Below are positions 596 through 25,045 of a DNA stretch of 64,000 nt, in pieces (position 1 is the stretch's first letter; each line of letters opens with the position of its first letter). The DNA comes from Bacteroidia bacterium (GTDB lineage Bacteria > Bacteroidota > Bacteroidia > 2-12-FULL-35-15). A program made the position numbers and the translations under genes. Under the pieces are notes generated by a model. It was not told the origin of the DNA, did not search any database, and saw only the letters and a list, made by a program, of their open reading frames with translations. The stretch spans positions 1 to 64,000 of the forward strand of contig JAGVJJ010000089.1 of the NCBI GenBank assembly GCA_020051175.1. The letters run 5' to 3'.

Positions 596-655
596 AAGTG
601 TAAATAGTGCATGGAAAAAGAGGTTGATTTGTGTTTTCCACTTTTTGATTTGTTT

Positions 656-8278: not shown

Positions 8279-8578
8279 ACCGCAAGCTGAATAGTACCAG
8301 CGGTCTATATTCCACACTTTGAATCAGTTATGCCTTGTTACTTTGTAACAATTGGCCGAATCCTGCGTAAGAAATTAAGTTAAACCTGGGGTATTTTTCT
8401 TATGAAGGTAAAATCTCCTTTTTGGGATAGGTTTTAATCAAATAACCCCTTTATTATGAGAATTTTAGCTTCGTCATCAGAATTGTTAAATAAAATGGGA
8501 TTATTACATTTTAATTTGCATCTTTGTATTTACCTATAGTGTATTTTAGGGTAAATGGGTGGGATTTTAAATTTAAAT
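8279..8578. other. 300-bp intergenic region, no gene seen
   Basis: The region is AT-rich and separates mgtE from the T9SS/SprF locus. CATCTTTG at about 8518-8525 resembles a -7 box with one mismatch (CA for TA) and could drive the downstream gene, but I see no matching -33. No hairpin with a T-tract is visible after mgtE. Confidence 0.4.
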
Positions 8579-9838
8579 ATGAAAAAATTAGCCGGTATCA
8601 TAGCGCTTTTAATTTTTCAGCTTTTCCTTGTTGGAAGAGGTGAAAGATTGTGTGCGCAGGTGTTGGTAAACAATGGCGGACTTATTTTCAGCACAAACGA
8701 TACTATTTACACCAATGGCGGGGTTTCCAATGAAGCAAACGGTACATTCAGCAATAGCGGCCAGCTGTATATAAACAGCAGTGGTTCTGATCCGGGCTAT
8801 TGGTCCAATATTGCGGGCAATGCAGGTTTTACCAATTCTGCAGGTGTTCAGGGTGCAAGCACTATTACCTGTTATCTTATCGGAGGCAACCAGAATATCG
8901 AGGGTAACGCAACAACGGAATTTCATAACCTCCGTCTGCGTGGTTCCGGCATTAAACAACTCAATGGTGTCGATGCAATTGTTCACGATACATTGGATTT
9001 GAGCACTTTTGAGCTGGCTACAGGTACTAACAGGCTATACGTTACCAATACAGATCCCAATGCCATTGAAAATGTTCATTCACAGGGTTTTGTGAGCAGC
9101 CTTGCAGGCGGTTTCCTTGCTCGCAACACTGCTCAGGCCAGCAGGTATGTGTTTCCGGTTGGCTCCAGCATTGGCCAGTTCAGGTACCGCCCCGTTGAGG
9201 TAGCCCCTGTTAACAGTGCATCTAACCAGTATGCTGTTCGTTTTTTTAACGATATGGCCGATAATGATGTCCCGGCTTATCCTGTTGCCCAGCGCCAGGC
9301 CACAATGAGTCGTGTAAACGAATATTATTATCACAATATAACAAGAGAGCAGGGAGCTAGTCCGGCCGACATTACAATCTATTACGATGCTGCAAGTGAT
9401 GGCCCTACAACGGGCATTGCGCACTGGCAAAATGCTCCTCAGTGGGAAGACATCGTTTCCAGCCCGGATGCGCCTAATTACGGTTATTCGTCTTATACCC
9501 GCCAGGCCTGGGACTTTTCAAATACATCACCTGCTTTTGCCCTCATGAAGCTTATCAACGAGTGTGGTGAAATGTTTGTCCCTACAGCCTTTTCGCCTGA
9601 TGGAAACGGGGAGAACGACATGGAGTGTGTATACGGCAAGTGTGTGGAGGAGCTTTATTTTGCCATCTACGACCGCTGGGGCGAAAAAGTATTTGAAACA
9701 ACAGATATGACGCAGTGCTGGGATGGTACGTACCGCGGCAGGCAAATGAATACAGCTGTTTTTGTTTTTTACATGAAAGCTAACCTTACCGATGGAACGG
9801 AAGTGGTTAAAAAAGGAAACATTAGCTTAATAAGATAA
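8579..9838 (+). CDS. Secreted protein with T9SS type B sorting domain (SprF partner)
   Basis: A 419-aa protein starting at the ATG at 8579, which gives the signal peptide MKKLAGIIALLIFQLFLVG...CAQ; an earlier ATG at 8555 would add eight residues. The middle (about 30-330) is rich in beta-strand and Asn/Thr/Gly sequence with no enzyme motif. The C-terminus begins VPTAFSPDGNGEND, contains IYDRWGEKVFET and ends KKGNISLIR, a type B gliding-motility-associated sorting domain. The stop is 8 bp before a PorP/SprF gene. T9SS type B substrates such as SprB are commonly paired with a dedicated SprF-family protein needed for their secretion, so these two probably work as a unit. The biochemical role is unknown. 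Confidence 0.85.
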   Translation: MKKLAGIIALLIFQLFLVGRGERLCAQVLVNNGGLIFSTNDTIYTNGGVSNEANGTFSNSGQLYINSSGSDPGYWSNIAGNAGFTNSAGVQGASTITCYLIGGNQNIEGNATTEFHNLRLRGSGIKQLNGVDAIVHDTLDLSTFELATGTNRLYVTNTDPNAIENVHSQGFVSSLAGGFLARNTAQASRYVFPVGSSIGQFRYRPVEVAPVNSASNQYAVRFFNDMADNDVPAYPVAQRQATMSRVNEYYYHNITREQGASPADITIYYDAASDGPTTGIAHWQNAPQWEDIVSSPDAPNYGYSSYTRQAWDFSNTSPAFALMKLINECGEMFVPTAFSPDGNGENDMECVYGKCVEELYFAIYDRWGEKVFETTDMTQCWDGTYRGRQMNTAVFVFYMKANLTDGTEVVKKGNISLIR

Positions 9839-9846
9839 TTGGCAGG

Positions 9847-10908
9847 ATGAAGAAGATAGTAGCCATAATTATAATCCTCTGTTTGAATGCACTCTTTTTG
9901 CAAAGGGAGGGTGGCGCTGTTTTAGCACAGGACATCCACTTTTCTCAGTTTTACATGGCCCCCCTTACCCTGAACCCGGGATATGCAGGTGCATTGTATG
10001 GCATGGAGGCCAATGCAAACTATAAGGAACAGTGGAGAAGTGTAGGATCACCCTACAAAACAATTGCGGCATCATACAGCCTTAGCCTTCAGAAGAAAAA
10101 GAGGGCAAAAGGTTATTTTGCTTTGGGTGTTAACTTTTTCAGCGATAAAGCAGGTGATTCAAAAATGGGAACATCGCAGGCAAATGTTACTGCTGCCGGC
10201 CACGTATACATCAACAGGTATATGAAGTTTGGCGGTGGTTTGCAGATTGGCTTTGCACAGCGCAGCATTGATTATACACCTTTAACCTGGGGCAACCAGT
10301 TTGACGGCATGGCTTACAATCCAAACCTTAGTTCCCGCGAAAACCTTCCTGAAGCATCATCTACCATGTATCCTGATGTTTCTGCCGGTATTGTTTATAG
10401 CTATAACAATACTGCCGGAATGAGGCGTGTTACGGATAACAATGACTTCAGGGTAAACCTGGGGCTTGCTGTTTTTCATGCTTCCCGCCCTAGTTATTCA
10501 TTTATTGGGACTGAAGAGAAACTATTTGCCAAATTTGTATTGCATGGCAACTCCCTGTTAAGCATCCCGTACAGCAATATTGGCTTTGTGCCTGGTTTTG
10601 CCGTTTACAACCAGGGTCCTGCTGTTGAGGTGTTTGCGGGAACTATGGTGCGTTACGTGTTTGCCCAGAAAAGTAAGTATACCGGTAACAGAACAACGAA
10701 TGCGCTTTCCCTTGGTGGCTACCTCAGGGCAAAGGATGCTGCTGTAATTGCCTTTATGCTGGAGTATTCAAAATATTCCATCGGCATGAGCTATGATGTG
10801 AATGTTTCACGGTTAAAAGTTGCGAGTGTAGGCAGGGGAGGATTTGAGCTGTCGTTAAGGTTTAATGCGGCAAATCCGTTTATGGTCAATTCAAGATCCC
10901 GTTTTTAG
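9847..10908 (+). CDS. PorP/SprF family type IX secretion membrane protein
   Basis: A 353-aa protein with a signal peptide (MKKIVAIIIILCLNALFLQ...LAQ) and the family opening motif DIHFSQFYMAPLTLNPGYAG. The rest is an amphipathic beta-barrel-like sequence with many aromatic girdle residues. PorP/SprF proteins sit in the outer membrane and support secretion or surface attachment of T9SS type B substrates. It lies 8 bp after a type B substrate and upstream of PD40/OmpA-like proteins, an arrangement typical of SprF-linked surface loci. The exact partner is inferred from adjacency. Confidence 0.92.
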   Translation: MKKIVAIIIILCLNALFLQREGGAVLAQDIHFSQFYMAPLTLNPGYAGALYGMEANANYKEQWRSVGSPYKTIAASYSLSLQKKKRAKGYFALGVNFFSDKAGDSKMGTSQANVTAAGHVYINRYMKFGGGLQIGFAQRSIDYTPLTWGNQFDGMAYNPNLSSRENLPEASSTMYPDVSAGIVYSYNNTAGMRRVTDNNDFRVNLGLAVFHASRPSYSFIGTEEKLFAKFVLHGNSLLSIPYSNIGFVPGFAVYNQGPAVEVFAGTMVRYVFAQKSKYTGNRTTNALSLGGYLRAKDAAVIAFMLEYSKYSIGMSYDVNVSRLKVASVGRGGFELSLRFNAANPFMVNSRSRF

Positions 10909-10989: not shown

Positions 10990-12180
10990 ATGAAAACAGG
11001 ACTCACCACTTTTTTGTGCGCATTTTCTTTCTTAGTGTGTGCACAACAAAAGGACTCCGTGAAGGTGGAAATAAAAAATCTGGGAACACAGGTAAACTCT
11101 CCTTTCGCAGATTATGCTCCACTTATTTCTGCAGACGGCACCGTAATGGTGTTTACTTCCCGCAGGCCAGTAATTGAAAAAGACATCACGAAAGAAAAAG
11201 AGGGCAAGGAAAATGTCTACATCACCTATTACGATGACAAGAACTCCCGCTGGCTGGTAACCTTTATGCTGGGGCCAACCATAAATACAGAAGAAATCGA
11301 TAACTCGGCCATTGCACTTTCTAACGATGGGCAGCGTATGTTCCTGTACCGTGGCGGAAATGAACAGAATGCAAATGGTGATATCCTGGAATCGGTACTT
11401 GTTGGTGACGAGTGGTCGGACCCGATGCGTTTGCCGGAACCTATCAACAGTGATGAGAATGAAACATCTGCAAGTATATCGCCAGATGGCAGAACAATTT
11501 ATTTTATCAGCGATCGCAAGTGGGGTTATGGCGGACGCGACATCTGGTATTGTACACAGGATGAAAATGGGGTGTGGGGAGAAGCCATCAATGCAGGCAG
11601 AAATGTAAACAGCACGCTGGACGAAGAGGGAGTATTCATTCATCCGAATGGTAAAGTGCTTTTCTTCAGTTCAAAAGGGCATTCATCAAAAGGCGGATAT
11701 GATATTTTTATGTCGGTTTTTGATGAAACCACACAAACCTGGGCACAGGCCGAAAATATTGGAGCTCCTATAAATACGGATGGAGATGAGATTTATTTTG
11801 TGATGGGTGCAAATGGTAGAACAGGTTATTATGCTTCTTCCCGTCCCGGTGGAACAGGCGACCTTGATATTTACAGCATCAATTTCCTGGAAGATATTAT
11901 GAAAAAGAATGTAACGCTGCTTTCCGGCCGCATTCTTGATAAAAATGAAAAGCCTGTTGGTTCAACCATTGTGTTGACTGAGAAAGGCACGGGAAAATAC
12001 ATCGGCTCATTCAAATCGAATAAAGCTACGGGTAAGTTCCTTGTATCCCTGCCTCCCGGAAAAAAATACGAATTCGATATTACAGCGGATGGCTATAAAG
12101 CCAATACCATTTCTGTGGATATCCCTTTTAAAGCGGGATATTCAGAAATGCAGTCGGATATTGTGATTGAAAAAAATTAA
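10990..12180 (+). CDS. PD40 beta-propeller protein with C-terminal regulatory-like domain
   Basis: A 396-aa exported protein (signal peptide MKTGLTTFLCAFSFLVCAQ). Residues about 25-300 form PD40/WD40-like propeller blades, with repeats such as ISADGTVMVFTSRRP, SPDGRTIYFISDR and HPNGKVLFFSSKGH. Residues about 305-396 are a carboxypeptidase-regulatory-like (CRD) fold (LSGRILDKNEKPVGSTIVLT, KYEFDITADGY). The propeller closely resembles the two propellers inside the giant protein encoded next. The architecture is related to the T9SS protein PorE (propeller, CRD, OmpA) but lacks the OmpA domain. It probably acts in the periplasm or at the outer membrane as part of the same assembly. Not an enzyme as far as can be seen. 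Confidence 0.85.
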   Translation: MKTGLTTFLCAFSFLVCAQQKDSVKVEIKNLGTQVNSPFADYAPLISADGTVMVFTSRRPVIEKDITKEKEGKENVYITYYDDKNSRWLVTFMLGPTINTEEIDNSAIALSNDGQRMFLYRGGNEQNANGDILESVLVGDEWSDPMRLPEPINSDENETSASISPDGRTIYFISDRKWGYGGRDIWYCTQDENGVWGEAINAGRNVNSTLDEEGVFIHPNGKVLFFSSKGHSSKGGYDIFMSVFDETTQTWAQAENIGAPINTDGDEIYFVMGANGRTGYYASSRPGGTGDLDIYSINFLEDIMKKNVTLLSGRILDKNEKPVGSTIVLTEKGTGKYIGSFKSNKATGKFLVSLPPGKKYEFDITADGYKANTISVDIPFKAGYSEMQSDIVIEKN

Positions 12181-12291
12181 TTTTTATAGCATAACTACTA
12201 TCCGTTTGGCAAAAGACATATCATATCAAAACAATAAATCAAAAGAACGAAGTATTGGCTATTCGGCCTTACGCTTGTGCAGTATCTCATC

Positions 12292-15200
12292 ATGAAAATT
12301 CTTGTTTCTGCCCTGCTTTGTCTTTGTTCTCTTGTAATTTTTGCTCAGCAGGATACTCCCTCAGGTGAGAACATTAAAAAAAACGGTTTTCTTTCCAGCC
12401 TTGTGGTGGATGAAGCCGGAATGCCACTCATTGTTCAGATCGATATTACCGATAATGTTACCAATGAAATAGTTCAACAATTCCAAAGCAGCAGGATTGG
12501 TTATTCCCGTATCTCCCTGCCATCCGGTAATTACAACATTGTATTCAGTAAACAAGGCTACCTGTTCCATTCCGAAAATTTTGTCATCCTGGATACAGCC
12601 GGATACGAAAAGAAGCTTAAAAAAGTAGTCCTGAAAAAAGTTGAGGTAGGCAACAATACCGTATTGAAAAATATTGCATTTGAAGACAACCAGTCAGTCC
12701 TGAAAGAAGCTTCGTTCAAAGATTTGCAACGGGTTCTGGAGCTGATGAATGAAATTGTGACCATTCAGATCGAAATATCCGGTGACATTGGAAAAGATGA
12801 ACAGGTAAAAACAAACAAGGAACTTGCCGAGCAAAGAGGAAAAGTGCTGATTGATTACCTTGTGAGCAAAGGTGTTGACAGGAACCGTTTGAAGTATACC
12901 AATAATGTAGAGCAGCCCATAGAGCTTGTAGATTCTGAGGAACCAGAAACAGACGACAGTAAAGTTCAGGTGAAGATTGTGGACATTGGGCCTCAAAAGC
13001 TGGTGCAAACGGAAGGCCAGTACTATGCTGTACCTGCAGAACCTGTTAAAAAGAAAAAAGGTAAGAAAAATAAAACAGATCAAACTACTGAAGAAGCTCT
13101 TAAAGCAGCAGCAGCTACAAGTGCTGGCAAAGCAGCGGAGCCGGAACCCGGGAAAGAAACTACACCTGACAATACAGCTGCAGCTGTAGAAAAAAAGGAA
13201 GAAAAAGTACCGGAAGAACCGGGTGCTGAAGTTTCCGGAGATATTGTAAAAAAAGAAGAGCCTCCTGTAACCGAACCTAAAGAAACTGCTGAAACGGAAA
13301 CAAAAGAACCGGTGAAAACTGAAGCTGCTGAGCCTTCTGAAGATAATAGCGGTATAGTTACATCTGAAAAAAAAGAGGAACCGGTTCCTGCTGAAGAAAC
13401 CGTGCCCGTGAAAACAGAAGCAGTGAATGAGGAGAAGGAAAGTACTGATATTGTTGCTGTTGATAAAAAGGACGATGCTTCTGAAGCTCAGGAAACGAGG
13501 AAAGAAGAGCAGAAAACTGAAGAGGTGGCTGCCGCACCACCTGCCGAAACTGAACCTGCTAAAGCGGAAGAGGCTGTGGTTGCTGTAACGGAGAAAAAAG
13601 CAGAAGCGCCTGCAGGGCAGGAACAAAAAGAAACCGGACAGGTTGATGTTGCAGGCAAATCAGTTACTGAAGGGGAACTTGGAGAAAAAAAGGAGGCAGA
13701 GCCCGCTTCTAAAGCAGAAGAAAACGTTGCTATCAAAGAGGAAGAGAAAACCATTGCAGAAACGCCCGTAGCAGAAACTGCGGCTGCCGGAGTGGTAGAG
13801 CAAAAGGACGAGCAAAGCCTTGTTAAGCCAGTAAACAATGCAGAAACAAATGGCGGGGAAAACCCTGAAAATAAATCGGGTGAAACGGCAGAGGCTTCTG
13901 ATGTTGAACCGGACAATACCAAAAAGGGCGCTACTCTTGCAGTAAGGGATACGGTTAAGAAAGAGTCCGTAAAAGAAAAGAATGTGCTTGCCGGGATTCC
14001 TGTGGATACCACCGTTTATGATCTGGAAGGGGTACGCGCAGATATTGGGTTTCTTGGGGAATCGATCAATTCTGCATTTCCGGATTATGCACCACTTATT
14101 AGTGCAGATGGAAATACAATGGTGTTTACTTCCCGCAGACCACTGAATAAGAAGGACGTTCAGAAAGGGAGGGTAGGTAAGGAAAATATCTATATTTCCC
14201 ATTATGACAACAGAGGAAAGGTTTGGTCACCAGCCGAAATGATGGATGCTACCATCAATATTCCTGAATCTGATAATACAGCTACTGCTATTTCTGCTGA
14301 TGGACAGCGCATCCTGATTTATCGTGCCAAGGATGATAAAAACCCAAGTGGTGATATTTATGAATCTGTTCTTAATGGTGATGTTTGGGCTGAGCCGGTA
14401 AAGCTGTCTGCACCGATTAATAGCAATGCGGAAGAAACATTTGCAGCAATATCTGCTGACGGGCAAACCCTTTATTTTGTAAGCGACAGAAAAGGCGGAT
14501 TGGGTGGTAAGGATATCTGGTCCTGTACCAAAGATAAATCCGGTAAGTGGGGAGAGGCCATTAATCTTGGGCCTACGGTAAACAGTAGCAAGGATGAGGA
14601 AACTGTATTCATGCATCCGAACGGCAGCACTATGTTTTTCAGTTCAAGGGGGCATCAGTCACCGGGCGGTGCGGATATATTTATGGCCACATTTGATGAA
14701 TCTACGGGAAGATGGGGCAGGATAACAAACATGGGTAACAGTGTGAACACGGAAGGGGATGATCTGTACTTTGTAATGGCGGCCAACTCTAAAACGGCTT
14801 ATAACGTATCGTACGAGCAGAATGGTTCGGGGAATAACGATATTTTCTGCCTGAACTTTGTAGACACTATTGTTCCTCAAAGCACAGTATTGCTGAAAGG
14901 TACTGTTATTGATGAAAATGGAAGGGTTATAAAATCTAAAATAACGTTTGCAGATCAGAACAATGATAAACCATTGGGACTGTTCTCATCGAACAGGGCT
15001 ACGGGAAAATATGTTGTGCCGCTGCCAGCCGGAAAAAATTACAATGTAAAATTTTCTGCAAAAGGTTACACCTCATTTGTGGAACCTCTTGAAACAAAAG
15101 GCCTGCCGTATGCAGAATTTTCCAAAATTATCCTGCTTGAATCCAGAAATACCTACCTGACTGGCAAAGCTGTTGATGTAAATGGGGCCCCGTTGAGTGT

Positions 15201-18200
15201 GCTGGTGGAAGCCATTGATAAATCAAACAAACAATGGATTGAAAAAACAATGAATGATGAGGAGGGGAACTGGCGCATTGCTGTACCTGCAGGCAAAAAT
15301 TATGGTATAGTGCTGAGCAAGCCCGGTTATTTCTTTTACACAATAAACACCACAATGCCGAATGCCATAGGTTATGAACGCGACTTTAAGACCATTACGC
15401 TCACAAAAATTGAATCGGGGAAAAAGGTGGTTCTGAACAATGTTGCTTTTGAACCCGGTAAGGCAGCGCTGAAACAAGAGATTTTTTCAGACCTTGATCT
15501 GGTTGTGAAGCTAATGACCGAGATGCCTACACTTCAGATAGAGATATCTGACAATGCTAATAATCTTGCTGCAAGCAAACCTTTTCAGCAACTTTCCAAA
15601 GACCGTGCAAAAGCTATGTCTGATTATCTTGTAAGTCGTGGTTGTGATATCAAGCGTATTAAGTATGCCAGCTATGATACAAAAGAACCTGTTGCCAGTA
15701 CCGGGAAAAAAGGCGAGTTTGCAAGCCGTGCGGAGTTAAAGGTGCTGAAGCTGGATGAAAAGGCAGAACAACAAACTGCTGAAAGCAGGATAAAGGAAAT
15801 TACTGAAGAAATAAAACGCATAAATGAAGCCAATGCTTTTGGTGAAGATATGGCTGATTCTTTGAATGGCGAGGGTGAAGATTCTGAGTTTGCAGATGGT
15901 ACGGAGGAGGCGGTAGATACTGCAGTGGTATCAGAATATGGAGATTCAACTATGGTGGATAGCATGGCTGTGGATTCTGTTTCAGAAGAGTTTGCCGGGG
16001 AGGTGGTGGATTCAACCGCCCTTATGGCAAGCGATTCTATTCAGATGACAATAAGGAACATGGGTTCGCTCATAAATTCCCCTTTTGCAGATTATGCACC
16101 TTTGGTTTCTGCTGATGGTACAAAATTGTTTTTTACATCCAACAGGCCTTTATATGCAGTAACGCCTTCAGCACCGCCCAAAGGCAAAATAAAAACACCT
16201 GAATACAAGAGTAGTATTTATACGTCAGACTACGAAGAAAACCAGGAGCACTGGCTGATGGCGGTGCCCCTGAAACAGGGTGTGAACCTGGAAAATGAAA
16301 ACAATACGGCTATTGCTGTGTCCAATGACAGCAAGCGTTTGCTCATGTACCGCTCTACGGATAGAGCAAATACACCTGGCGATATTATGGAAACAACAAG
16401 CCCTAATGTAGATTGGGCAATGCCAATGGTAGTGCTTTCATCTTTAAACAGTCCGGCCTTGGAAACCGCTGCCAGCTATTCACCGGATGGACGCACCATT
16501 TATTTTGTGAGCGACAGGCAGGGAGGGGCAGGAATGAAAGATATATGGTATTGTACGCAGAATGAAAAAGGGGTATGGGGCGATGCTGTAAATATCGGTG
16601 AACCGGTGAATACAGATAAAGATGAAGAGAGTGTGTTTATACACCCGAATGGTAATACTCTTTTCTTTAGTTCCAAAGGCCACAATACAACAGGCGGATA
16701 CGATATTTATATGACGGAACACAATGATTCAAGCGATACCTGGGAGCAGCCCCGCAACCTGGGAAGCTTTATAAACACCCCTGAAGACGACTTGTATTTT
16801 GTGCTGGCTGCAGATGGGAAAACAGGCTATTATTCGGCCATACGGCCAGATGGGTTAGGTAAGGAAGATATTTACCAGGTGCTGATGGAACAGAGCATAT
16901 TAAAAAAGAATACAACGATTTTAAAAGGTGTTGTGATGGACGAAGCCGGACAGGTGTTGAGGGCAAAAATCACTGTAAAAGATAAAGCAACCGGAAAGGT
17001 TATTGGCACTTATACATCTACAGCCAGCAATGGAAAATATGCGATTTCATTACCTGAAGGCAAAAACTATGAAATAAAAGTGCTTGCTCCGGACCATACA
17101 GCTTATGTGCGTACTATTGATCTTACGGACAAAAAGCGGTACGATGAATTAAAGAAGAATATTGTGCTGGAAACCAGAAATGCATTCCTGACCAGTAAAG
17201 TATACAATGAAGCCGGACAGCCAATAAGTAAAGTTCAGATAGAGGTGATTGATAAAACTGCCAAGCAGCTGATTGACAGAGCTGAGAGCGATAGCGAAGG
17301 ATATTCACGCATTGCTATCCCATCCAATAAAACAATCGATGTAATCTACAGAAAACCCGGGTACCTGTTCCAGTCGGTGAGTGTTGTGCTTCCAAAGTTT
17401 GAACCAAACAAGGAGTATGAGAAGGACTTAAAAACCATTACCCTTCAAAAGATGGAAGTGGGTAAAAAGACAGTGCTTTCCAATATCTCTTATGATTTCA
17501 ACCAAACCACGCTCAGTCCTGAATCGTTCCTGGATTTGTCAAGGGTGGTGACCATGATGAACAATATGCCAAGCTTGCAGGTAGAGGTGTCTGATCATAC
17601 GGACAATACTGCCGAATCAAAGGAGATGCAGAAACTGAGCAAGGATAGGGCAAAAGCTGTTGCTGACCGCTTGATTAGCATGGGCGCTGATAAGAAAAGG
17701 ATAAAATATAAGAGTTATGGCGCTTTGCAGCCCATTGCCCCAAATGGCTCTGAACAGGGCCGTGCAATGAACAGAAGGGTGGAGCTCAAAATTCTGAAAA
17801 TTGATGCAGCAACTGAAATTGCTGCCGAAGAAAAACGCTGGAGAGAGGAGCAGCCTTTAATGGAAGAAACGGAAAGTAATAATCCTTTCATTAATGAATC
17901 CATGGTGGAGAAAAAAGATTCAACAACTTCTGCTGCTACCAAAGAAGAAGTTAAGGAAGAGCCTGTTCAGAATAAAAAGGATGAGTCAGAAACGGGTGTA
18001 ATGCCAGGCTTGGATGGTGTTGTAACAGAGGAGCCTGCACCTGCTAAGAAAGAAACAGAAGTGGTAAACGAGCCGGAGGATACCAAATCCGTTACAAAGG
18101 AAGAACGTGTTCAGAATAAAAAGGATGAGCCTGAAACGGGTGTAATGCCAGGGCTGGACGGTGTTGTAACAGAGGAACCTGCCCCCGCTAATAAAGAAAC

Positions 18201-19026
18201 AGAGGTGGTAAGCGAACCTGAGGAGAGCAAATCCGTTACAAAGGAAGAACCTGTTCAGAATAAAAAGGACGAGCAAGAGGTAGGTGTAATGCCAGGTTTG
18301 GATGGGATTGTTACAGAGGAGCCCGCTCCTGCTAAAAAAGAAACAGAGGTGGTAGACGAACCGGAAGAAACCAAAGCGGTAAGCAAAGAGGAACCGGTTC
18401 AGAACAAAAAAGAAGAGCCTGAAGTGGGTGTAATGCCAGGTTTGGATGGTGTTGTAACAGAGGAGCCTGCACCTGCCAAGAAAGAAACAGAAGTGGTAAG
18501 CGAACCGGAAGAAACCAAAGCAGTAACCAAGGAGGAACCGGTTCAGAACAAAAAAGAAGAGCCTGAAGTGGGTGTAATGCCAGGTTTGGATGGTGTTGTA
18601 ACAGAGGAGCCTGCACCTGCTAAGAAAGAAACAGAAGTGGTAAGCGAACCGGAAGAAACCAAAGCAGTAACTAAGGAGGAACCAGTTCAGAACAAAAAAG
18701 AAGAGCCTGAGGTGGGTGTAATGCCAGGTTTGGATGGTGTTGTACAGGACGAACCGGTTCAGAACAAAAAGGAGGAGCCGGAAGTGGGTGTAATGCCAGG
18801 TCTGGATGGAGTTGTAAGCGATGAGCCGGGTACGAAAAATGAAGAAAAGAAAGGGACAGTGACCAAGTCGTCCTTACCGGATCGTTTTGTGAAGTTTGAC
18901 AGTGATCGGGATGGAACTCTTTCTGCAAACGAAATTTATGGTGCAATAGATGCCTTTTTTGATGATAATTCAACGATAGTTGCAGATGATATCAATGCAA
19001 TGATTGATTATTTTTTTGATAATTAA
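12292..19026 (+). CDS. Giant multi-domain envelope protein: CRD, OmpA-like, PD40 propellers, repeat linker, EF-hand tail
   Basis: A 2244-aa protein; the ATG at 12292 gives the signal peptide MKILVSALLCLCSLVIFAQ. Approximate order: CRD (20-115); OmpA-like 1 (122-231); low-complexity E/K/P/A linker (243-565); PD40 propeller (580-857); two CRDs (862-1040); OmpA-like 2 (1042-1155); acidic linker (1160-1245); PD40 propeller (1250-1530); two CRDs (1535-1720); OmpA-like 3 (1723-1840); tandem 48-residue repeats (1889-2176); and a C-terminal EF-hand with a perfect loop DSDRDGTLSANE followed by a helical tail ending DYFFDN. Only OmpA-like 3 keeps both the HTD aspartate and the LSKDRA arginine used for peptidoglycan binding. 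It looks like a periplasm-spanning scaffold made by triplicating a PorE-like block. Function is inferred from domains only. Confidence 0.85.
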   Translation: MKILVSALLCLCSLVIFAQQDTPSGENIKKNGFLSSLVVDEAGMPLIVQIDITDNVTNEIVQQFQSSRIGYSRISLPSGNYNIVFSKQGYLFHSENFVILDTAGYEKKLKKVVLKKVEVGNNTVLKNIAFEDNQSVLKEASFKDLQRVLELMNEIVTIQIEISGDIGKDEQVKTNKELAEQRGKVLIDYLVSKGVDRNRLKYTNNVEQPIELVDSEEPETDDSKVQVKIVDIGPQKLVQTEGQYYAVPAEPVKKKKGKKNKTDQTTEEALKAAAATSAGKAAEPEPGKETTPDNTAAAVEKKEEKVPEEPGAEVSGDIVKKEEPPVTEPKETAETETKEPVKTEAAEPSEDNSGIVTSEKKEEPVPAEETVPVKTEAVNEEKESTDIVAVDKKDDASEAQETRKEEQKTEEVAAAPPAETEPAKAEEAVVAVTEKKAEAPAGQEQKETGQVDVAGKSVTEGELGEKKEAEPASKAEENVAIKEEEKTIAETPVAETAAAGVVEQKDEQSLVKPVNNAETNGGENPENKSGETAEASDVEPDNTKKGATLAVRDTVKKESVKEKNVLAGIPVDTTVYDLEGVRADIGFLGESINSAFPDYAPLISADGNTMVFTSRRPLNKKDVQKGRVGKENIYISHYDNRGKVWSPAEMMDATINIPESDNTATAISADGQRILIYRAKDDKNPSGDIYESVLNGDVWAEPVKLSAPINSNAEETFAAISADGQTLYFVSDRKGGLGGKDIWSCTKDKSGKWGEAINLGPTVNSSKDEETVFMHPNGSTMFFSSRGHQSPGGADIFMATFDESTGRWGRITNMGNSVNTEGDDLYFVMAANSKTAYNVSYEQNGSGNNDIFCLNFVDTIVPQSTVLLKGTVIDENGRVIKSKITFADQNNDKPLGLFSSNRATGKYVVPLPAGKNYNVKFSAKGYTSFVEPLETKGLPYAEFSKIILLESRNTYLTGKAVDVNGAPLSVLVEAIDKSNKQWIEKTMNDEEGNWRIAVPAGKNYGIVLSKPGYFFYTINTTMPNAIGYERDFKTITLTKIESGKKVVLNNVAFEPGKAALKQEIFSDLDLVVKLMTEMPTLQIEISDNANNLAASKPFQQLSKDRAKAMSDYLVSRGCDIKRIKYASYDTKEPVASTGKKGEFASRAELKVLKLDEKAEQQTAESRIKEITEEIKRINEANAFGEDMADSLNGEGEDSEFADGTEEAVDTAVVSEYGDSTMVDSMAVDSVSEEFAGEVVDSTALMASDSIQMTIRNMGSLINSPFADYAPLVSADGTKLFFTSNRPLYAVTPSAPPKGKIKTPEYKSSIYTSDYEENQEHWLMAVPLKQGVNLENENNTAIAVSNDSKRLLMYRSTDRANTPGDIMETTSPNVDWAMPMVVLSSLNSPALETAASYSPDGRTIYFVSDRQGGAGMKDIWYCTQNEKGVWGDAVNIGEPVNTDKDEESVFIHPNGNTLFFSSKGHNTTGGYDIYMTEHNDSSDTWEQPRNLGSFINTPEDDLYFVLAADGKTGYYSAIRPDGLGKEDIYQVLMEQSILKKNTTILKGVVMDEAGQVLRAKITVKDKATGKVIGTYTSTASNGKYAISLPEGKNYEIKVLAPDHTAYVRTIDLTDKKRYDELKKNIVLETRNAFLTSKVYNEAGQPISKVQIEVIDKTAKQLIDRAESDSEGYSRIAIPSNKTIDVIYRKPGYLFQSVSVVLPKFEPNKEYEKDLKTITLQKMEVGKKTVLSNISYDFNQTTLSPESFLDLSRVVTMMNNMPSLQVEVSDHTDNTAESKEMQKLSKDRAKAVADRLISMGADKKRIKYKSYGALQPIAPNGSEQGRAMNRRVELKILKIDAATEIAAEEKRWREEQPLMEETESNNPFINESMVEKKDSTTSAATKEEVKEEPVQNKKDESETGVMPGLDGVVTEEPAPAKKETEVVNEPEDTKSVTKEERVQNKKDEPETGVMPGLDGVVTEEPAPANKETEVVSEPEESKSVTKEEPVQNKKDEQEVGVMPGLDGIVTEEPAPAKKETEVVDEPEETKAVSKEEPVQNKKEEPEVGVMPGLDGVVTEEPAPAKKETEVVSEPEETKAVTKEEPVQNKKEEPEVGVMPGLDGVVTEEPAPAKKETEVVSEPEETKAVTKEEPVQNKKEEPEVGVMPGLDGVVQDEPVQNKKEEPEVGVMPGLDGVVSDEPGTKNEEKKGTVTKSSLPDRFVKFDSDRDGTLSANEIYGAIDAFFDDNSTIVADDINAMIDYFFDN
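13021..13990 (+). repeat. Low-complexity E/K/P/A linker coding region
   Basis: About 320 residues dominated by Glu, Lys, Pro, Ala, Thr and Val with no fixed repeat period, joining OmpA-like domain 1 to the first propeller. It is probably extended and disordered. Long open frames on the other strand here are side-products of the biased codons. Confidence 0.75.
17956..18819 (+). repeat. 144-bp tandem repeats (48 aa) in the giant protein
   Basis: Five full 144-bp units run from 17956 to 18675, followed by two 72-bp half units (18676-18747 and 18748-18819). Each full unit encodes (E)EPVQNKKxExExGVMPGL, then DGVVTEEPAPAKKETEVV and SEPEETKAVTK. Units 4 (18388-18531) and 5 (18532-18675) encode the same peptide and differ at two synonymous positions, which indicates recent duplication. 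The half units contain only the VQNKK...MPGLDGVV half. Confidence 0.95.
18898..18933 (+). other. EF-hand calcium-binding loop in the giant protein
   Basis: Encodes the 12-residue loop D-S-D-R-D-G-T-L-S-A-N-E, with acidic ligands at positions 1, 3, 5 and 12 and Gly at 6, matching a canonical EF-hand. It is followed by the helical tail EIYGAIDAFFDD...DYFFDN. Confidence 0.85.
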
Positions 19027-19147
19027 TCAGTAACCAGCATTATTATTGTCAGCTATTTTTTTTAAAAGTTATGGAATTGAGTGCCATAATGCATTAATAG
19101 TATAACAGCAGATTTACTTATATAGAAGCAAAATTTATTGCATAGAG

Positions 19148-21097
19148 ATGAAAACCTTTTTTATCAGTCTTTTTTGTATTTTCTCAATGTTTGCCTTTGC
19201 TCAGGACGAGGGGAAAAGTATTGTGCCTGTTTACGTTAAGACCTTAACTAAAGGCAAAAAATCACTCAAAGTCACTATTGAGGTAGTAGATGCCGAAACC
19301 AAAAAGATGATTAAGACCATTGAAAGCAGTGGGAAAAATACGCGTGTGCTTTTGGAACAGGGCAGGGATTATATTCTGGTATTCAGCAAACCCGGGTTTC
19401 TTTTTCAATCTGTAAGTGTTGCATTGTCAGATTCTGCAGTGGTTAAGGAAAAAAAACTGAAAAGTATCCTGATGGAGAAAGTGGAGGTGAATAAAAAAAC
19501 GGTGCTGAACAACCTTTCTTTTGATGTATATCAGAAAATATCTGAATATGAATCGCAGACAGACCTGCTGTATATCATGAAGCTTTTGGAAACAATGCCA
19601 AAGCTTCAGCTGGAATTCGGAGGTTATACCTGTAATTCCGGATCTATGGATTTAAGCCTGAAGGTGTCTGAAGAAAAAGCAAAAACTCTTGTAGATTATT
19701 TTGTAAGCAAAGGTGCGAATGCAGGAAGGCTTCAATATAAAGGTTATGGCTCTTTTCAGCCCATTGCAAGCAATCATTCGCAAGAAGGAAGGATATTGAA
19801 TAACAGGATAGAAATGAAGGTTATAGGCAATGATTTTAAATCAGAAACACCAGAGCAACTGCAAAAGATAGAGCCTGATACAAACAACCGTGTGCAAAGC
19901 ACTGTTAAAACTGCTTGTGCCACAGGGCCAGGAAACAATTCAGCTGCCTCAACGAATCTATCATCTGACGCTAATACTGTGGCTCAAATCAATTCATCAT
20001 CCGAAACCTTATACATGCCAGGTATTAATTCAAATACAGAGGCTGCTACAGAACCTGAAAGTAGTACCATGGCTGGTGTGAATTCAGCTGGAGAAAGTAC
20101 CGAAATCAGCACTGTAACCGGAATAAATTCAAACACAGAAACAAATTCAACCACGGAAACAAACCCGGCCACTTCAACCGAAACAATGCCCGGGATTAAT
20201 CCTGCCGCTGAATCCAATACAACGCCTGAAACTTCAACAATGCCGGGGATTGATCCGGTTGCCGAATCCAATACAACGTCTGAAACTTCAACAATGCCGG
20301 GAATTGATCCGGTTGCTGAATCCAATACAACGCCTGAAACTTCAACAATGCCGGGGATTGACCCGGTTGCCGGCTCCAATACGCCTGAAACTTCAACAAT
20401 GCCGGGAATTGACCCGGTTGCCGGATCCAATACAACGCCTGAAACTTCAACAATGCCGGGAATTGATCCGGTTGCAGAATCCAATACAACGCCTGAAACT
20501 TCAACAATGCCAGGAATTGATCCGGTTGTTGAATCCAATACAACTGCAGAAACCACAACAACGCCTGGAAGTAATTCCACCACAGAATCAAATTCAACAA
20601 CCGAAACATCTTCAATGCCGGGTATTTATCCGACAGCGGGAAGTACAACAACGGAAACGAATCCGGTAGCAGGGGCCAATACAGCAACCGGTAATTCGCC
20701 CGGAACAGATTCGGTAAAAGCAGAACCACAGGTAACAAAAGCAGCAGCAGCTAAGGAACCTATACCAAACGCCTCCTTAACAAAGGATTATAAGGGAATG
20801 TTTATTGCAGACAAAAAGCCATTTGCAAATGCTACTGTTAACTTATTGACGGAGAAAGGAAAAGTATACAAAACCACAAAAACAGATAAAAATGGACGTT
20901 TTAGTTTTGTTGGAATCCCCGCAGATAAAAAACTGACAGTTGGCCTGAATGAAAAAGAAACAAAAAAGTATAAAAAAGTGAAATTGCTGGATAGCGCAAG
21001 TGAAATTTATGGGGCAATAGATGGTTATTTTGAAGATAATTCTACCATAATTGCTGATGATATCAATGCAATGATAGATTATTTCTTTGATAACTAA
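19148..21097 (+). CDS. OmpA-like/CRD protein with 18-residue tandem repeats and truncated EF-hand tail
   Basis: A 649-aa protein with signal peptide MKTFFISLFCIFSMFAFAQ. Order: CRD (about 22-115); OmpA-like domain (about 118-235); Ser/Thr/Asn-rich linker with six 18-residue repeats (about 361-467) centred on TSTMPGIDPVAESNTTPE; a short CRD-like segment (about 545-612) nearly matching the third paralogue; then a tail ending DYFFDN. The OmpA domain carries GGYTCN and SEEKA where functional domains have HTDN and SEERA, so both peptidoglycan-binding residues are replaced. The tail starts in the middle of the EF-hand motif, and the Asp-rich loop is missing. Probably a diverged partner or decoy of its two neighbours; function unknown. 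Confidence 0.85.
   Translation: MKTFFISLFCIFSMFAFAQDEGKSIVPVYVKTLTKGKKSLKVTIEVVDAETKKMIKTIESSGKNTRVLLEQGRDYILVFSKPGFLFQSVSVALSDSAVVKEKKLKSILMEKVEVNKKTVLNNLSFDVYQKISEYESQTDLLYIMKLLETMPKLQLEFGGYTCNSGSMDLSLKVSEEKAKTLVDYFVSKGANAGRLQYKGYGSFQPIASNHSQEGRILNNRIEMKVIGNDFKSETPEQLQKIEPDTNNRVQSTVKTACATGPGNNSAASTNLSSDANTVAQINSSSETLYMPGINSNTEAATEPESSTMAGVNSAGESTEISTVTGINSNTETNSTTETNPATSTETMPGINPAAESNTTPETSTMPGIDPVAESNTTSETSTMPGIDPVAESNTTPETSTMPGIDPVAGSNTPETSTMPGIDPVAGSNTTPETSTMPGIDPVAESNTTPETSTMPGIDPVVESNTTAETTTTPGSNSTTESNSTTETSSMPGIYPTAGSTTTETNPVAGANTATGNSPGTDSVKAEPQVTKAAAAKEPIPNASLTKDYKGMFIADKKPFANATVNLLTEKGKVYKTTKTDKNGRFSFVGIPADKKLTVGLNEKETKKYKKVKLLDSASEIYGAIDGYFEDNSTIIADDINAMIDYFFDN
20228..20548 (+). 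repeat. 54-bp tandem repeats (18 aa)
   Basis: Six near-identical units begin at 20228, 20282, 20336, 20387, 20441 and 20495. All are 54 bp except the third-to-fourth step, which is 51 bp from loss of one Thr codon. Each encodes ETSTMPGIDPVAESNTTP or a close variant; more diverged units flank the array on both sides. Confidence 0.95.
20999..21094 (+). other. Truncated EF-hand tail shared with the giant protein
   Basis: Encodes SEIYGAIDGYFEDNST and onward to DYFFDN. Over the last 96 bp including the stop, it differs from the giant gene's 3' end at only 12 bases, but the preceding Asp-rich calcium loop is absent. The residues just before it (KVKLLDSA) align instead with an internal CRD of the third paralogue (SVQLADTA). 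Confidence 0.85.
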
Positions 21098-21379
21098 AGC
21101 TTCTTTGCCTGTTTAAGGATAAAAGAATCGCTTGTTTTTATGGGTAATAATTGTTTAATTTGTAAAGTTTGGCTGTGCGGCAATTGAAAGAATATCAAGT
21201 TATTACTGTAAGCCGGACGGTAAGGTTAACCTGATTTGCTGTTTTTACTGTTTCCAATAGTTTTTTAGTACGGAATTTATGGAATTTGAGGTAGATGAGC
21301 ATCATTTTAACAGGAAAGTGCTCTATTTGAAAAGACGGGAGTGCGCAGGGTTTGGTTTTAAATATTGACTGTGTTACTG
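21098..21379. other. 282-bp intergenic region, nothing recognised
   Basis: No gene, strong hairpin or clear TAnnTTTG promoter is visible between the second and third OmpA-like paralogues. An alternative TTG start at 21365 lies just before the chosen ATG. Confidence 0.4.
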
Positions 21380-23479
21380 ATGAGAGTTTTTTTTATTACT
21401 TTTTTTTGTGCTTTCTCCTTGTATCTATTTGCCCAGGATGGAGGAAAAAAAAGTGTCCTTGTTACTGTCAAAACCCTTGACGAAAGTAATGACCCCCTAA
21501 AAGTTAGTGTAGAAGTGGTTGACAACGAGACCAAAGAAGTTGTTACCTCACTGGAAAGTGCCAGTGGCGGTGATACAAAAATCAAGCTGGCAGCCTCAAA
21601 GAATTATACCATTTTTTTTAGCAAAACCGGGTATTTATTTCAGTCGGTAGTAGTGAAGCTGCAGGATTCGGTAGCCAGGGACAAGAAGTTGAAAGAGGTG
21701 GTGATGCAAAAAGTGACAATTGGTAAAAAAGTAATTCTCAGAAGTACTTCTTTTGATGATTATCAGAAGGTGCTGATTGAAGAATCGATGCCGGATGTTG
21801 ATCGCATTATTAAACTCCTTGAAGACACGCCTCAATTGCAGATAGAGCTCGGAGGGTATACCGATAACTTCGGCTCGGTAAACCTTACCACAAAGGTTTC
21901 TGAAGAAAGAGCCAAAGCGCTTATGGATTTGCTAGTAGAAAAGGGTGTAGATGAGGGGCGCCTGCAATACAAAGGCTATGGACCGATACAGCCAATAGCC
22001 AACAATTTAACTGAAGAGGGCAGGGTGGCCAATAACCGCATTGAACTTAAGGTAATAGGCCTTGACTATGTCCCGTTGTCGCCTGCTGAACTGAAGAAAA
22101 AGAGGGCCAACGCAAAAAAGACAGAAAACAATACAGAGAACCCGGAGGAAAACCCGGTTGACGATACCCCAAAAGATACCATTAAAACCGATGCGGTTCC
22201 TATGGCAATTGTTCCCACTGAGCCAGTAAGCGACAGTCTTTTGAAAATTGATTATAAGGGTATGTTCATTGCGGATAAAAAGCCAATGGCAAATTCAACA
22301 GTAAACTTATTGACTGACCAGGGGCAGGTTTTTCAAACTACAAAAACAGATGAAAACGGTAGTTTCCAGTTTATTGGAGTGCCTGCAGAAAAGGAGCTGA
22401 GGCTTGGGCTTGATGAAAAGGAGTCGAAGAAGTTCAAATCAGTTCAGCTTGCCGATACTGCCGGTGTTGTTGTGGAAGATTTGGTAAAAGTAGACGGGAA
22501 ATTTGAGCACAGGATTTTACCTAGTGAAAAAGTAAAGCTGGGCCAGGTATATGTGGTTGACCCGGAATTGAAAATCAGGAAACCGAAACCTAAAAATTCA
22601 AACCAGATGGCAATTGTTACGGGACGTGTGCTGGATGACCGTGGCAATCCTATCAAAGCCGATGTGGAAGCTGTTGACTTATCAAGTGGGACTACGGTTC
22701 AGAAGGTAACCAGCACCAGCACAGGTGAGTTTGCTATAAGCATTGCTGCTGGTAAAAATTACGACATAGCTGTAAGTAAACCAGGATATTCGTTCCAGAC
22801 CGTTAATGCAATTATTCCGGAGGTAGCAGGTTATGAGAAAAAAGTGGGCGATGTATCCCTTCAAAAGGTTGAAACAGGTAAAAAAATCATCCTTAACAAT
22901 ATCTTTTTTGATGTTAACCAGTCCACATTGCGCAAAGAATCTTATGGTGAGCTTGGAAGGGTGCTGAAGCTGATGAATGATATCAGTTCACTGCGAATCG
23001 AGATATCTGGTCACACGGACAATATAGGTTCTGTTAAGAGCAATAAAACCCTTTCCGAGCAGAGGGCAAAGGCTGTGAAAGATTATCTTATTGCAAACGG
23101 GGCCAATAAGGACAGGCTAACCTCCAAAGGCTATGGTTCCACCCAGCCTGTTGCCAATAATGCAACCGAGGGAGGCAGGCAGCTGAACCGCAGGACTGAG
23201 TTTAAGGTGCTGGAAGTAAACCAGGAAGAGGTGAAAAACAAGGAAGAACCAGGTGAAACAGCAGGCAATAAACGCAACACAACAGCAGATGATCCTGAAG
23301 ATACTGCTCCGAAAGAGATGCCCGAGGCCTTTAAACAATATGATATAGATAAAAATGGTTCTATCTCCTATGAAGAGGTAATTGCGGCAATTGATTTGTA
23401 TTTTGAGCAGCACCCTAATGGTAATACTCAGAAAAAAGAAGAGCTCACCAGTCTTTTTGATTATTATTTTGAAAAGTAA
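21380..23479 (+). CDS. OmpA-like/CRD protein with two OmpA domains and intact EF-hand tail
   Basis: A 699-aa protein; the ATG at 21380 gives signal peptide MRVFFITFFCAFSLYLFAQ, better than a TTG five codons earlier. Order: CRD (about 20-112); OmpA-like 1 (about 115-232, GGYTDN and SEERA intact); Lys/Asn-rich linker; short CRD (about 290-370); CRD (about 410-495); OmpA-like 2 (about 497-610, SGHTDN and SEQRA intact); linker; EF-hand (loop DIDKNGSISYEE at 23342-23377) and helical tail ending DYYFEK. Both OmpA domains should bind peptidoglycan by family rules. It is the most intact of the three paralogues and perhaps closest to the ancestral form. Last gene of the SprF-linked locus. Confidence 0.88.
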   Translation: MRVFFITFFCAFSLYLFAQDGGKKSVLVTVKTLDESNDPLKVSVEVVDNETKEVVTSLESASGGDTKIKLAASKNYTIFFSKTGYLFQSVVVKLQDSVARDKKLKEVVMQKVTIGKKVILRSTSFDDYQKVLIEESMPDVDRIIKLLEDTPQLQIELGGYTDNFGSVNLTTKVSEERAKALMDLLVEKGVDEGRLQYKGYGPIQPIANNLTEEGRVANNRIELKVIGLDYVPLSPAELKKKRANAKKTENNTENPEENPVDDTPKDTIKTDAVPMAIVPTEPVSDSLLKIDYKGMFIADKKPMANSTVNLLTDQGQVFQTTKTDENGSFQFIGVPAEKELRLGLDEKESKKFKSVQLADTAGVVVEDLVKVDGKFEHRILPSEKVKLGQVYVVDPELKIRKPKPKNSNQMAIVTGRVLDDRGNPIKADVEAVDLSSGTTVQKVTSTSTGEFAISIAAGKNYDIAVSKPGYSFQTVNAIIPEVAGYEKKVGDVSLQKVETGKKIILNNIFFDVNQSTLRKESYGELGRVLKLMNDISSLRIEISGHTDNIGSVKSNKTLSEQRAKAVKDYLIANGANKDRLTSKGYGSTQPVANNATEGGRQLNRRTEFKVLEVNQEEVKNKEEPGETAGNKRNTTADDPEDTAPKEMPEAFKQYDIDKNGSISYEEVIAAIDLYFEQHPNGNTQKKEELTSLFDYYFEK
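23342..23377 (+). other. EF-hand calcium-binding loop
   Basis: Encodes D-I-D-K-N-G-S-I-S-Y-E-E, a canonical EF-hand loop with ligands at 1, 3, 5 and 12 and Gly at 6. Confidence 0.85.
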
Positions 23480-23672: not shown

Positions 23673-24215
23673 ATGACGCAGGTTTCAACAGCTTTTGAAG
23701 TATATCAGTTCATGAGTGAAAAAAATATCCTGGTAGCATTTACCGGGCATTTTGATCATCTTGTAACTACATCGCTGTTAAAGAATATCAAGAGTAAGCT
23801 GGGTGAGTTGCAGTCGATGACCGGAATTGATAAGAAGGTATACAATGTACTGGTTGAAAGTATTGAAAATATTAGCAAATACACACTGAAGAACTCCAAT
23901 AAGCACAATATTGCCATGCTGCTGTTGTGCAAAGGGGAAAATAATTTCACCATTATTACCGGTAATCACGTATTAAACAAGGATATTCCTGCGTTGAAGG
24001 AGCGTTTGGACAGAGTTATACAACTCGGGCAGGATGACCTGAAAAAAATGTACAGGGAGCAAATGATGTCCAAACGCACCGATGAAAACAGTGCGGGACT
24101 AGGGATTATTGACATTGCTATAAAATCAAGAAACAGGATTAAATATGATTTTAAGCCATTGAATAATGACACATCATTTTACCTTTTTCAAACGGAAATA
24201 AATATTCAAAAATAA
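23673..24215 (+). CDS. SiaB family protein kinase (DUF6272)
   Basis: A 180-aa cytoplasmic protein resembling SiaB, a HATPase-fold kinase related to anti-sigma factors. Visible motifs are an N-box-like VLVESIENISKYTLKN (about 66-81) and a G-box-like ENSAGLGIIDIAIKS (about 136-150). In Pseudomonas, SiaB phosphorylates SiaC and the phosphatase SiaA reverses this. Here two SiaC-type genes follow directly, 12 bp and then 11 bp apart, so the kinase-substrate relation is likely kept. No SiaA (PP2C) or SiaD (GGDEF) gene is in the window. The family call is confident; the downstream output is unknown. Confidence 0.85.
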   Translation: MTQVSTAFEVYQFMSEKNILVAFTGHFDHLVTTSLLKNIKSKLGELQSMTGIDKKVYNVLVESIENISKYTLKNSNKHNIAMLLLCKGENNFTIITGNHVLNKDIPALKERLDRVIQLGQDDLKKMYREQMMSKRTDENSAGLGIIDIAIKSRNRIKYDFKPLNNDTSFYLFQTEINIQK

Positions 24216-24227
24216 AACAATCGTTAT

Positions 24228-24629
24228 ATGGATTCGCTTATAATTGAGGCAACGGAAGATTCACCAAAGATACTATTTGATACAGCATCTAACCGTTTTA
24301 CTATTTCAGGTGAATCACGCCCTGAAAATGCTGGGAAGTTCTATACTCCCGTAATTAACTGGATTGTTAAGTTTGAGGAAATTCTTGCAAAAAGAAAAAA
24401 CGAACAGAAGGACGAAACACCACTGGTGTTTGTATTTAAGCTTGATTATTTTAATTCAACTTCTGCAAAATATATAATGGATATACTTTTGGTGTTGAAA
24501 AAATTTGCAGATGACGGTTATAAAGTGGCTATAGAATGGCATTACGATAAGCGTGATGACGATATGCTGGATGCCGGCAATGAATTTTCTGATACAGTTG
24601 ATTTGAAATTTGACTTTATCGAATATTAA
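24228..24629 (+). CDS. SiaC family regulatory phosphoprotein (DUF1987), paralogue 1
   Basis: A 133-aa single-domain protein. Family hallmarks are the opening IIEATEDSPKILFD, the ISGESRPENAGKFYTPVI segment and the LDYFNSTSAKYI motif (residues 72-83), whose Ser/Thr cluster (S77, T78, S79) corresponds to the phosphorylated threonine of Pseudomonas SiaC. It ends with the conserved WHYDKRDDDMLDAGNEFS. Probably the substrate of the SiaB-like kinase encoded 12 bp upstream. In Pseudomonas, unphosphorylated SiaC activates a diguanylate cyclase; no such partner is visible here, so the effector must be different or encoded elsewhere. Confidence 0.85.
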   Translation: MDSLIIEATEDSPKILFDTASNRFTISGESRPENAGKFYTPVINWIVKFEEILAKRKNEQKDETPLVFVFKLDYFNSTSAKYIMDILLVLKKFADDGYKVAIEWHYDKRDDDMLDAGNEFSDTVDLKFDFIEY

Positions 24630-24640
24630 ATTTTCTCCGG

Positions 24641-25045
24641 ATGGATGCATTGATTATTAAAGCTACAGACGACTCACCTGAAGTTAATTTCGATCCCACC
24701 ACCAATATTCTTAGTATTTCCGGAGAATCGCGCCCTGAAAATGCAGGTAAATTTTATGCGCCCGTTATAGACTGGCTTGTAAATTTTGAAGGCTTGCTTT
24801 ACTGGCGAAAACATGAAATGAAAGACAATTCAAGCAATGTTGTTGTAAAATTCAGGCTTGAATATTTTAACTCCACATCTGCAAAAAATATCCTTGATGT
24901 ATTGTTGATCCTTAAGCGCTATATAGACCAGGGCTATAAAGTAAGCGTGGAATGGCATTACGATAAATTCAGCGAAGATATACTGGATACAGGTAATGAG
25001 TTTTCAAAAATGACCGGGGTTGACTTCACATTCGTTGAAGCCTGA
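24641..25045 (+). CDS. SiaC family regulatory phosphoprotein (DUF1987), paralogue 2
   Basis: A 134-aa protein that aligns end to end with the preceding gene (ISGESRPENAGKFYAPVI, LEYFNSTSAKNILDVLLILK, VEWHYDKFSEDILDTGNEFS). The Ser/Thr cluster (S78, T79, S80) is kept. The two paralogues differ most around residues 51-70, the region that in a SiaC-like fold precedes the phospho-loop strand. The tandem arrangement suggests duplication followed by specialisation for two partners of one kinase. Confidence 0.85.
   Translation: MDALIIKATDDSPEVNFDPTTNILSISGESRPENAGKFYAPVIDWLVNFEGLLYWRKHEMKDNSSNVVVKFRLEYFNSTSAKNILDVLLILKRYIDQGYKVSVEWHYDKFSEDILDTGNEFSKMTGVDFTFVEA

Follow-up and report, generated by a model that had tools for sequence, protein, structure and literature searches.

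How is a surface protein exported by the type IX secretion system (T9SS) held in place on the cell, and what is to be made of a locus in which its usual periplasmic anchor is encoded by four genes instead of one? The question is raised by a stretch of DNA from a Bacteroidia bacterium (contig JAGVJJ010000089.1, assembly GCA_020051175.1), 64,000 nucleotides long and called the window below. The genome it comes from, labelled G000 among those compared, is a draft of 4.05 Mb with 82% completeness. Here, genes for a type B substrate of the T9SS and for a PorP-family carrier are followed by four anchor-like genes, named after their first positions (10990, 12277, 19148 and 21365), which lie where a first-pass annotation, made from the sequence by a model, had placed them. 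We consider it likely, at a probability of about 0.7, that this locus provides the 427-amino-acid (aa) type B surface protein with an enlarged, static anchor to the wall. The one usual periplasmic anchor gene is multiplied to four genes, with six putative wall-binding OmpA domains among them.

Domains were assigned by Pfam and NCBIfam profile searches and architectures by hidden Markov models built from the window proteins; AlphaFold2 and Foldseek were used for structures, and the signal sequences of the window proteins were judged by eye. The relatives compared are uncultured Bacteroidota metagenome-assembled genomes, mostly from water or groundwater according to their isolate names. The genus survey covered 36 species and the class sample 395 genomes.

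Gene order and domain architecture

The first gene of the series (8555..9838, +) encodes the type B substrate, a predicted surface cargo of 427 aa with matches to CHU_C (3e-12, Pfam) and Bac_Flav_CTERM (3e-11, NCBIfam). Orthologues of 421-425 aa occupy the same position in G013, G002, G021 and G027. After a gap of 8 base pairs (bp), this gene with a type B C-terminal domain (CTD) is directly followed by that of a 353-aa outer-membrane carrier of the PorP/SprF family (9847..10908, +; PorP_SprF 2e-31 in Pfam; TIGR03519 2e-44, over its cut-off). The earlier claim that both stand upstream of the anchor genes is borne out. Beside the carrier, from 10990 onward, the PorE-like domains (propeller, CarboxypepD_reg-type domain or CRD, and OmpA) are encoded, split over two genes.

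All four anchor genes lie on the forward strand. Gene 10990 (10990..12180) encodes a stand-alone PD40 propeller with a CRD (396 aa; PD40 5e-30, Pfam), in which no OmpA domain, tetratricopeptide repeat (TPR) or lipobox was found; its orthologues in seven other genomes are 65-86% identical. The giant 12277 (12277..19026; Pfam PD40 3e-53, OmpA 3e-34, CarboxypepD_reg 3e-29) reads CRD-OmpA, linker, PD40-CRD-CRD-OmpA, PD40-CRD-CRD-OmpA, repeat linker, EF-hand tail, and starts at a GTG (2249 aa) or, more plausibly, at an ATG five codons later (2244 aa). Its C-terminal linker is an in-frame tandem repeat (17953..18744, +; 144 bp x 5.5, a 48-aa unit with MPGLDG), and its C-terminal tail (18835..19023, +) holds one canonical EF-hand loop, DSDRDGTLSANE. 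Gene 19148 (19148..21097; 649 aa) has the order CRD-OmpA-(18-aa repeats)-CRD-half tail; the tail is missing its first half, and the calcium loop is gone. Gene 21365 (21365..23479) has the order CRD-OmpA-CRD-CRD-OmpA-EF tail and is listed from a TTG (704 aa), an ATG start at MRVFF being likely; its Pfam matches are OmpA 4e-38, CarboxypepD_reg 6e-19 and EF-hand 5e-5, the last slightly short of the cut-off.

The OmpA, PD40, CarboxypepD_reg and EF-hand families were thus recovered far above chance. The description of the last three genes as paralogues that reuse one set of parts holds for the shared CRD and OmpA domains; it fails for the propeller, since profile searches found no PD40 in 19148 or 21365, and in part for the tail. 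The giant had been read as a PorE-like block repeated three times. PorE-like blocks are indeed present, as an N-terminal half block and two full blocks, and the missing half is 10990: its PD40-CRD, read on into the opening CRD-OmpA of 12277, gives one further full block, so that the three blocks are spread over two genes.

Across the anchor proteins, the propeller, CRD and OmpA-like domains of the PorE type are all present. The best NCBIfam models are CHU_0125_OmpA, which ranks first for all four, and T9SS_PorE (NF052230), whose scores of 140 (10990), 418 (12277), 59 (19148) and 171 bits (21365) are all below the curated cut-off of 600. No TPR was matched in any window protein; the PorE match of 10990 begins at model position 142 and its PD40 at residue 24. 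Nor was a lipobox seen in the window proteins, whose signal sequences end in C/F-A-Q. For the final PD40-CRD-CRD-OmpA block of 12277 (597 residues), the model reached a mean pLDDT (predicted local distance difference test score) of 85 and contains propeller strands in a row, a pair of beta-sandwich domains and a fold like that of OmpA; Foldseek related its OmpA part to OmpA, Pal and OprF domains (root-mean-square deviation about 1.3-5 A) and its propeller to TolB. Among solved OmpA domains, the closest in sequence is 6top, deposited as OmpA family protein, which we take to be the PorE C-terminal domain of PMC7192894. The NCBIfam matches and 6top support the PorE-like building blocks that had been suggested; a role in wall anchoring is likewise supported.

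The 54-bp in-frame repeats of 19148 (TMPGIDPVAESNTTPETS; window positions 20182-20632) have MPG[LI]D in common with the giant's repeat linker and not with the orthologues. As a general docking motif MPG[LI]D was rejected, since the linker repeats of the orthologous proteins do not contain it.

Putative wall contact, carrier tails and published systems

In the reported PorE-peptidoglycan structure, the wall is touched by the side chains of Asp576, Asn584 and Arg591 (PMC7192894). According to the alignment, all three are kept in OmpA domain 2 of 21365, the sole full site among the six window domains. Asp and Arg are kept in domain 3 of 12277 and domain 1 of 21365, Asn and Arg in domain 1 of 12277, Arg alone in domain 2 of 12277, and none in 19148. 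The single-block PorE-like proteins encoded directly beside a PorP gene have all three residues in every aligned case.

From these features a division of labour can be proposed. The 427-aa protein would be exported by the T9SS and remain bound to the barrel 9847 at the surface, and a periplasmic anchor would hold the cargo-barrel pair still. The anchor of an ordinary cassette, one PD40-(CRD)-CRD-OmpA protein, appears to have been duplicated and divided here. The most likely docking site of protein 10990 is the side of 9847 that faces the periplasm, and the giant may serve as a long, mostly flexible scaffold, its OmpA-like repeats, with the wall site largely lost, acting as spacers or protein contacts. 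Peptidoglycan would be held by 21365, perhaps also by OmpA domain 3 of the giant. In this way the locus would assign docking on the carrier to 10990, reach to 12277 and the grip on the wall to 21365, which leads to clean predictions on domain roles.

The first-pass annotation had put the locus forward as an undescribed system. This does not hold for its core trio of cargo, carrier and anchor, which is already published (PMC9143113 and the available part of PMC12618676); the expansion of the anchor is what is new. In Porphyromonas gingivalis, the complex of PorE, PorP and the type B protein PG1035 likewise joins a type B cargo, a PorP barrel and a periplasmic propeller-CRD-OmpA protein, with PorE as the link from carrier to peptidoglycan (PMC9143113). 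PorE is one four-domain lipoprotein with a TPR, whereas the window has four proteins with six OmpA domains and neither TPR nor lipobox. For Flavobacterium johnsoniae, the available part of PMC12618676 describes five operons of a type B substrate, an SprF-like carrier and a PorE homologue. Operons such as Fjoh_3952-3951-3950 have the same order as the window, and static surface foci were seen for the one operon tested. Each of these operons has a single PorE-like gene, and no multi-block giant is mentioned in that part. A split propeller protein together with a multi-block giant and a double-OmpA protein was not found described in the literature searched. In the papers found, what is known of the immobilisation of type B T9SS surface proteins comes from a single complex and a single case of imaging.

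Cassettes of the ordinary kind are common in the genus. A TPR-less PorE-like gene directly follows a PorP gene at 22 loci in the surveyed contigs, mostly preceded by a type B substrate; among 120 complete PorP-like genes outside fusions, a PorE-like gene is adjacent in 43 cases and a type B substrate in 84. In the sequenced genome, a PorP-CRD-OmpA fusion was found (L128 5899-8397, G000:C1; Pfam PorP 3e-59, OmpA 3e-24), and other fusions are PorP-CRD in L256 and L272 and PorP-CRD-OmpA-OmpA in L277. Such independent fusions suggest that barrel and anchor work as a unit, and the PorP-CRD-OmpA form is evidence from genomes for a link between barrel and wall.

A second line of evidence concerns the carrier tail. 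SprF of F. johnsoniae, which with SprB forms a comparable pair of PorP-family carrier and type B cargo, binds the moving gliding track through a C-x-C tail and a disulfide to the GldK track; the tail of the window PorP, in contrast, has no Cys (PMC12635249 for SprF). Cys within the last 14 residues is likewise absent from all carriers beside TPR-less anchors (0/25). It is present in 13 of 30 carriers beside N-extended PorE-like proteins and in 27 of the 84 that have no PorE-like neighbour (Fisher p 9e-5 and 4e-4, with no correction for relatedness). That a PorE neighbour excludes a tail Cys in general was rejected, as 18 of the 43 such carriers have one; the exclusion is confined to carriers of TPR-less anchors. 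The tail of 9847 fits static anchoring of the window cargo and does not express a general rule. Even so, the pattern joins the published static and mobile models in one testable rule, with exceptions. Cys tails unlike the C-x-C of SprF also occur in the PorP family (SCPSF, KCPRSL, NCPRL, MCPSF, PCPKF and VCPIYM; L121, L122, L130, L131, L219, L227 and others).

Several observations count against a static wall anchor. The TPR and the lipobox, both part of PorE itself, were not found in the window proteins, and the degenerate OmpA sites may bind peptidoglycan through other residues. The 25 carriers free of tail Cys are related sequences, and the 13 carriers with a tail Cys stand beside proteins that are themselves PorE-like. 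Finally, in G029 the cargo and PorP genes do not precede the anchor genes.

Distribution and evolution of the expanded locus

The expanded locus was found in 8 of the 36 genus species (G000, G002, G013, G018, G021, G022, G027 and G029) and was not seen outside the genus in the class sample, where the best matches are at most 54% identical and their frames span about 520-700 aa, a length that corresponds to single-block PorE-like proteins. Linkage to a type B substrate and a PorP/SprF carrier recurs in related genomes, in support of the link that the first-pass annotation had drawn. The order cargo, PorP, PD40-CRD is present in G000, G002, G013, G021 and G027, with the first anchor gene of G021 fused into a 1166-aa protein; G018 has PorP followed by PD40-CRD and its likely cargo at another contig end, and the locus of G022 is cut. 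The giant is 1834 aa long in G021 and 2867 aa in G027; G013 has at least 2194 aa of it and G022 at least 2095. It, or its start, opens with PD40 in G002, G018, G022 and G029 and with CRD-OmpA in the window, G013, G021 and G027. The double-OmpA protein orthologous to 21365 follows the giant in G002, G013, G018, G022, G027 and G029. In the 2867-aa giant (L109 8779-17382), several charged, probably helical repeats of about 150 aa replace one propeller block.

Could the four proteins instead be general envelope-integrity proteins that stitch the outer membrane to the wall in the manner of CHU_0125 or Pal, carrier and cargo being incidental? The best model of all four, although they score under its cut-off (70-507 of 620 bits), is named 'outer membrane integrity protein', and the Pal-like CHU_0125 family (NF053607; available part of PMC5891637) has the order PD40-CRD-OmpA; the set of G029, with no adjacent cargo and PorP, agrees with this. 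However, the cargo-PorP-anchor order is maintained in five genomes, PorP-CRD-OmpA fusions exist, half of the OmpA domains are without wall-binding residues, and the set occurs in only 8 of 36 species. This explanation is therefore regarded as unlikely.

The history of the proposed anchor can be followed in the propellers. In a tree, all propellers of the expanded locus form one clade (support 100/99), and the stand-alone propeller and both propellers of the 1166-aa protein of G021 form an orthologous group of their own (97/94). The two propellers of the giant form orthologous pairs between the window and G013. Between these two genomes, nonsynonymous divergence (dN) is 0.081 for the stand-alone propeller and 0.261 and 0.258 for those of the giant, which puts the rate of the stand-alone propeller at about a third of theirs; it is the one beside PorP in gene order, and it is the constrained one. 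The dN of the cargo CTD is 0.095 and that of PorP 0.166, with synonymous sites near saturation.

The locus directly follows mgtE in five genomes, including the window, and this position would speak for vertical inheritance and against horizontal mobility. The MgtE tree counts the other way: five of the eight are in one clade, from which G002 and G018 are split off with support (a long branch in one gene).

It is quite improbable that most of the set consists of decaying or drifting duplicates, with only 10990 and 21365 functional and the giant and 19148 as by-products of unequal recombination. Long tandem repeats are present, the number and order of blocks differ between species, and 19148 has lost both its wall site and its calcium loop; its sole counterpart, in G022, has an in-frame stop. 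Yet in G021 and G027 the frame of the giant is uninterrupted over 1834-2867 codons, and between the window and G013 dN is 0.13-0.41 in the folded domains of the giant, with synonymous sites mostly saturated, which indicates purifying selection. The G022 counterpart (L350 319-1341) is a short CRD-OmpA-EF tail gene in which the single in-frame TGA marks a pseudogene or a sequencing error.

EF-hand tails and downstream SiaB/SiaC genes

Two of the three tailed window proteins have a canonical 12-residue EF loop between helices (DSDRDGTLSANE in 12277; DIDKNGSISYEE), and this loop is conserved in orthologues. Eight tails align in this loop and in a conserved downstream helix, and their profile matches calmodulin EF-hands. 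The model of the tail (pLDDT 80) has three helices, the first and second of which are joined by the loop, and Foldseek gave no significant match to this model. Of the 36 genus genomes, 33 have the tail, mostly in a single copy carried by a protein of about 440-480 aa; these tailed proteins are regarded as PorG-like barrels (NF052316, DUF6089). Two of them, with the same EF-hand tail, are encoded in the sequenced genome (L120 7968-9293 and 9667-10992, G000:C57). Both match T9SS_PorG below cut-off, DUF6089 was found in the one copy tested, and a stronger PorG candidate is located elsewhere in the genome. A literature search for EF-hand together with PorG and T9SS found no description of the tail. 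As a domain the tail is real, the calcium response put forward in the first-pass annotation being a guess; probably it is a small calcium-stabilised docking tag that the window proteins share with the PorG-like outer-membrane barrels of the genus.

Directly downstream lie genes for a SiaB-family kinase (23673-24215, +) and two SiaC-family phosphoproteins (24228-24629 and 24641-25045, +). Genes of both families lie after the locus not only in the window but also in G002, G013, G018, G022 and G029, and G027 has a SiaB-like gene at the same place. With a threshold of E<=1e-30, SiaB-like proteins were found in all eight genomes that have the expanded locus and in none of the others, a co-occurrence that shared ancestry may explain. 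In Pseudomonas aeruginosa, the Sia pathway governs biofilm formation according to the available part of PMC7647112. A calcium-dependent scaffold under SiaB/SiaC control can be imagined, in which EF tails dock the giant and 21365 on PorG-like barrels or each other with calcium, spreading one tether along the wall, and Sia phosphorylation switches surface display on and off during aggregation; we hold it to be improbable.

Least probable is a part in the gliding or secretion machinery, as a PorE/PorG-like scaffold for the T9SS motor ring and not an anchor for one cargo: the EF tail is common to the near-universal PorG-like barrel of the genus, but a better PorG candidate is present in the genome, the genus also has ordinary N-extended PorE-type proteins (some without a PorP gene beside them), and the expanded set, absent from 28 of the 36 species, cannot be a core T9SS part.

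Two further large proteins were observed in the same genome. A very large propeller protein of 1980 aa has a PD40 match and no OmpA (L119 7317-13256, G000:C20), and within the window a 1514-aa protein with a type B CTD (611-5155) is an orphan substrate with no adjacent PorP gene.

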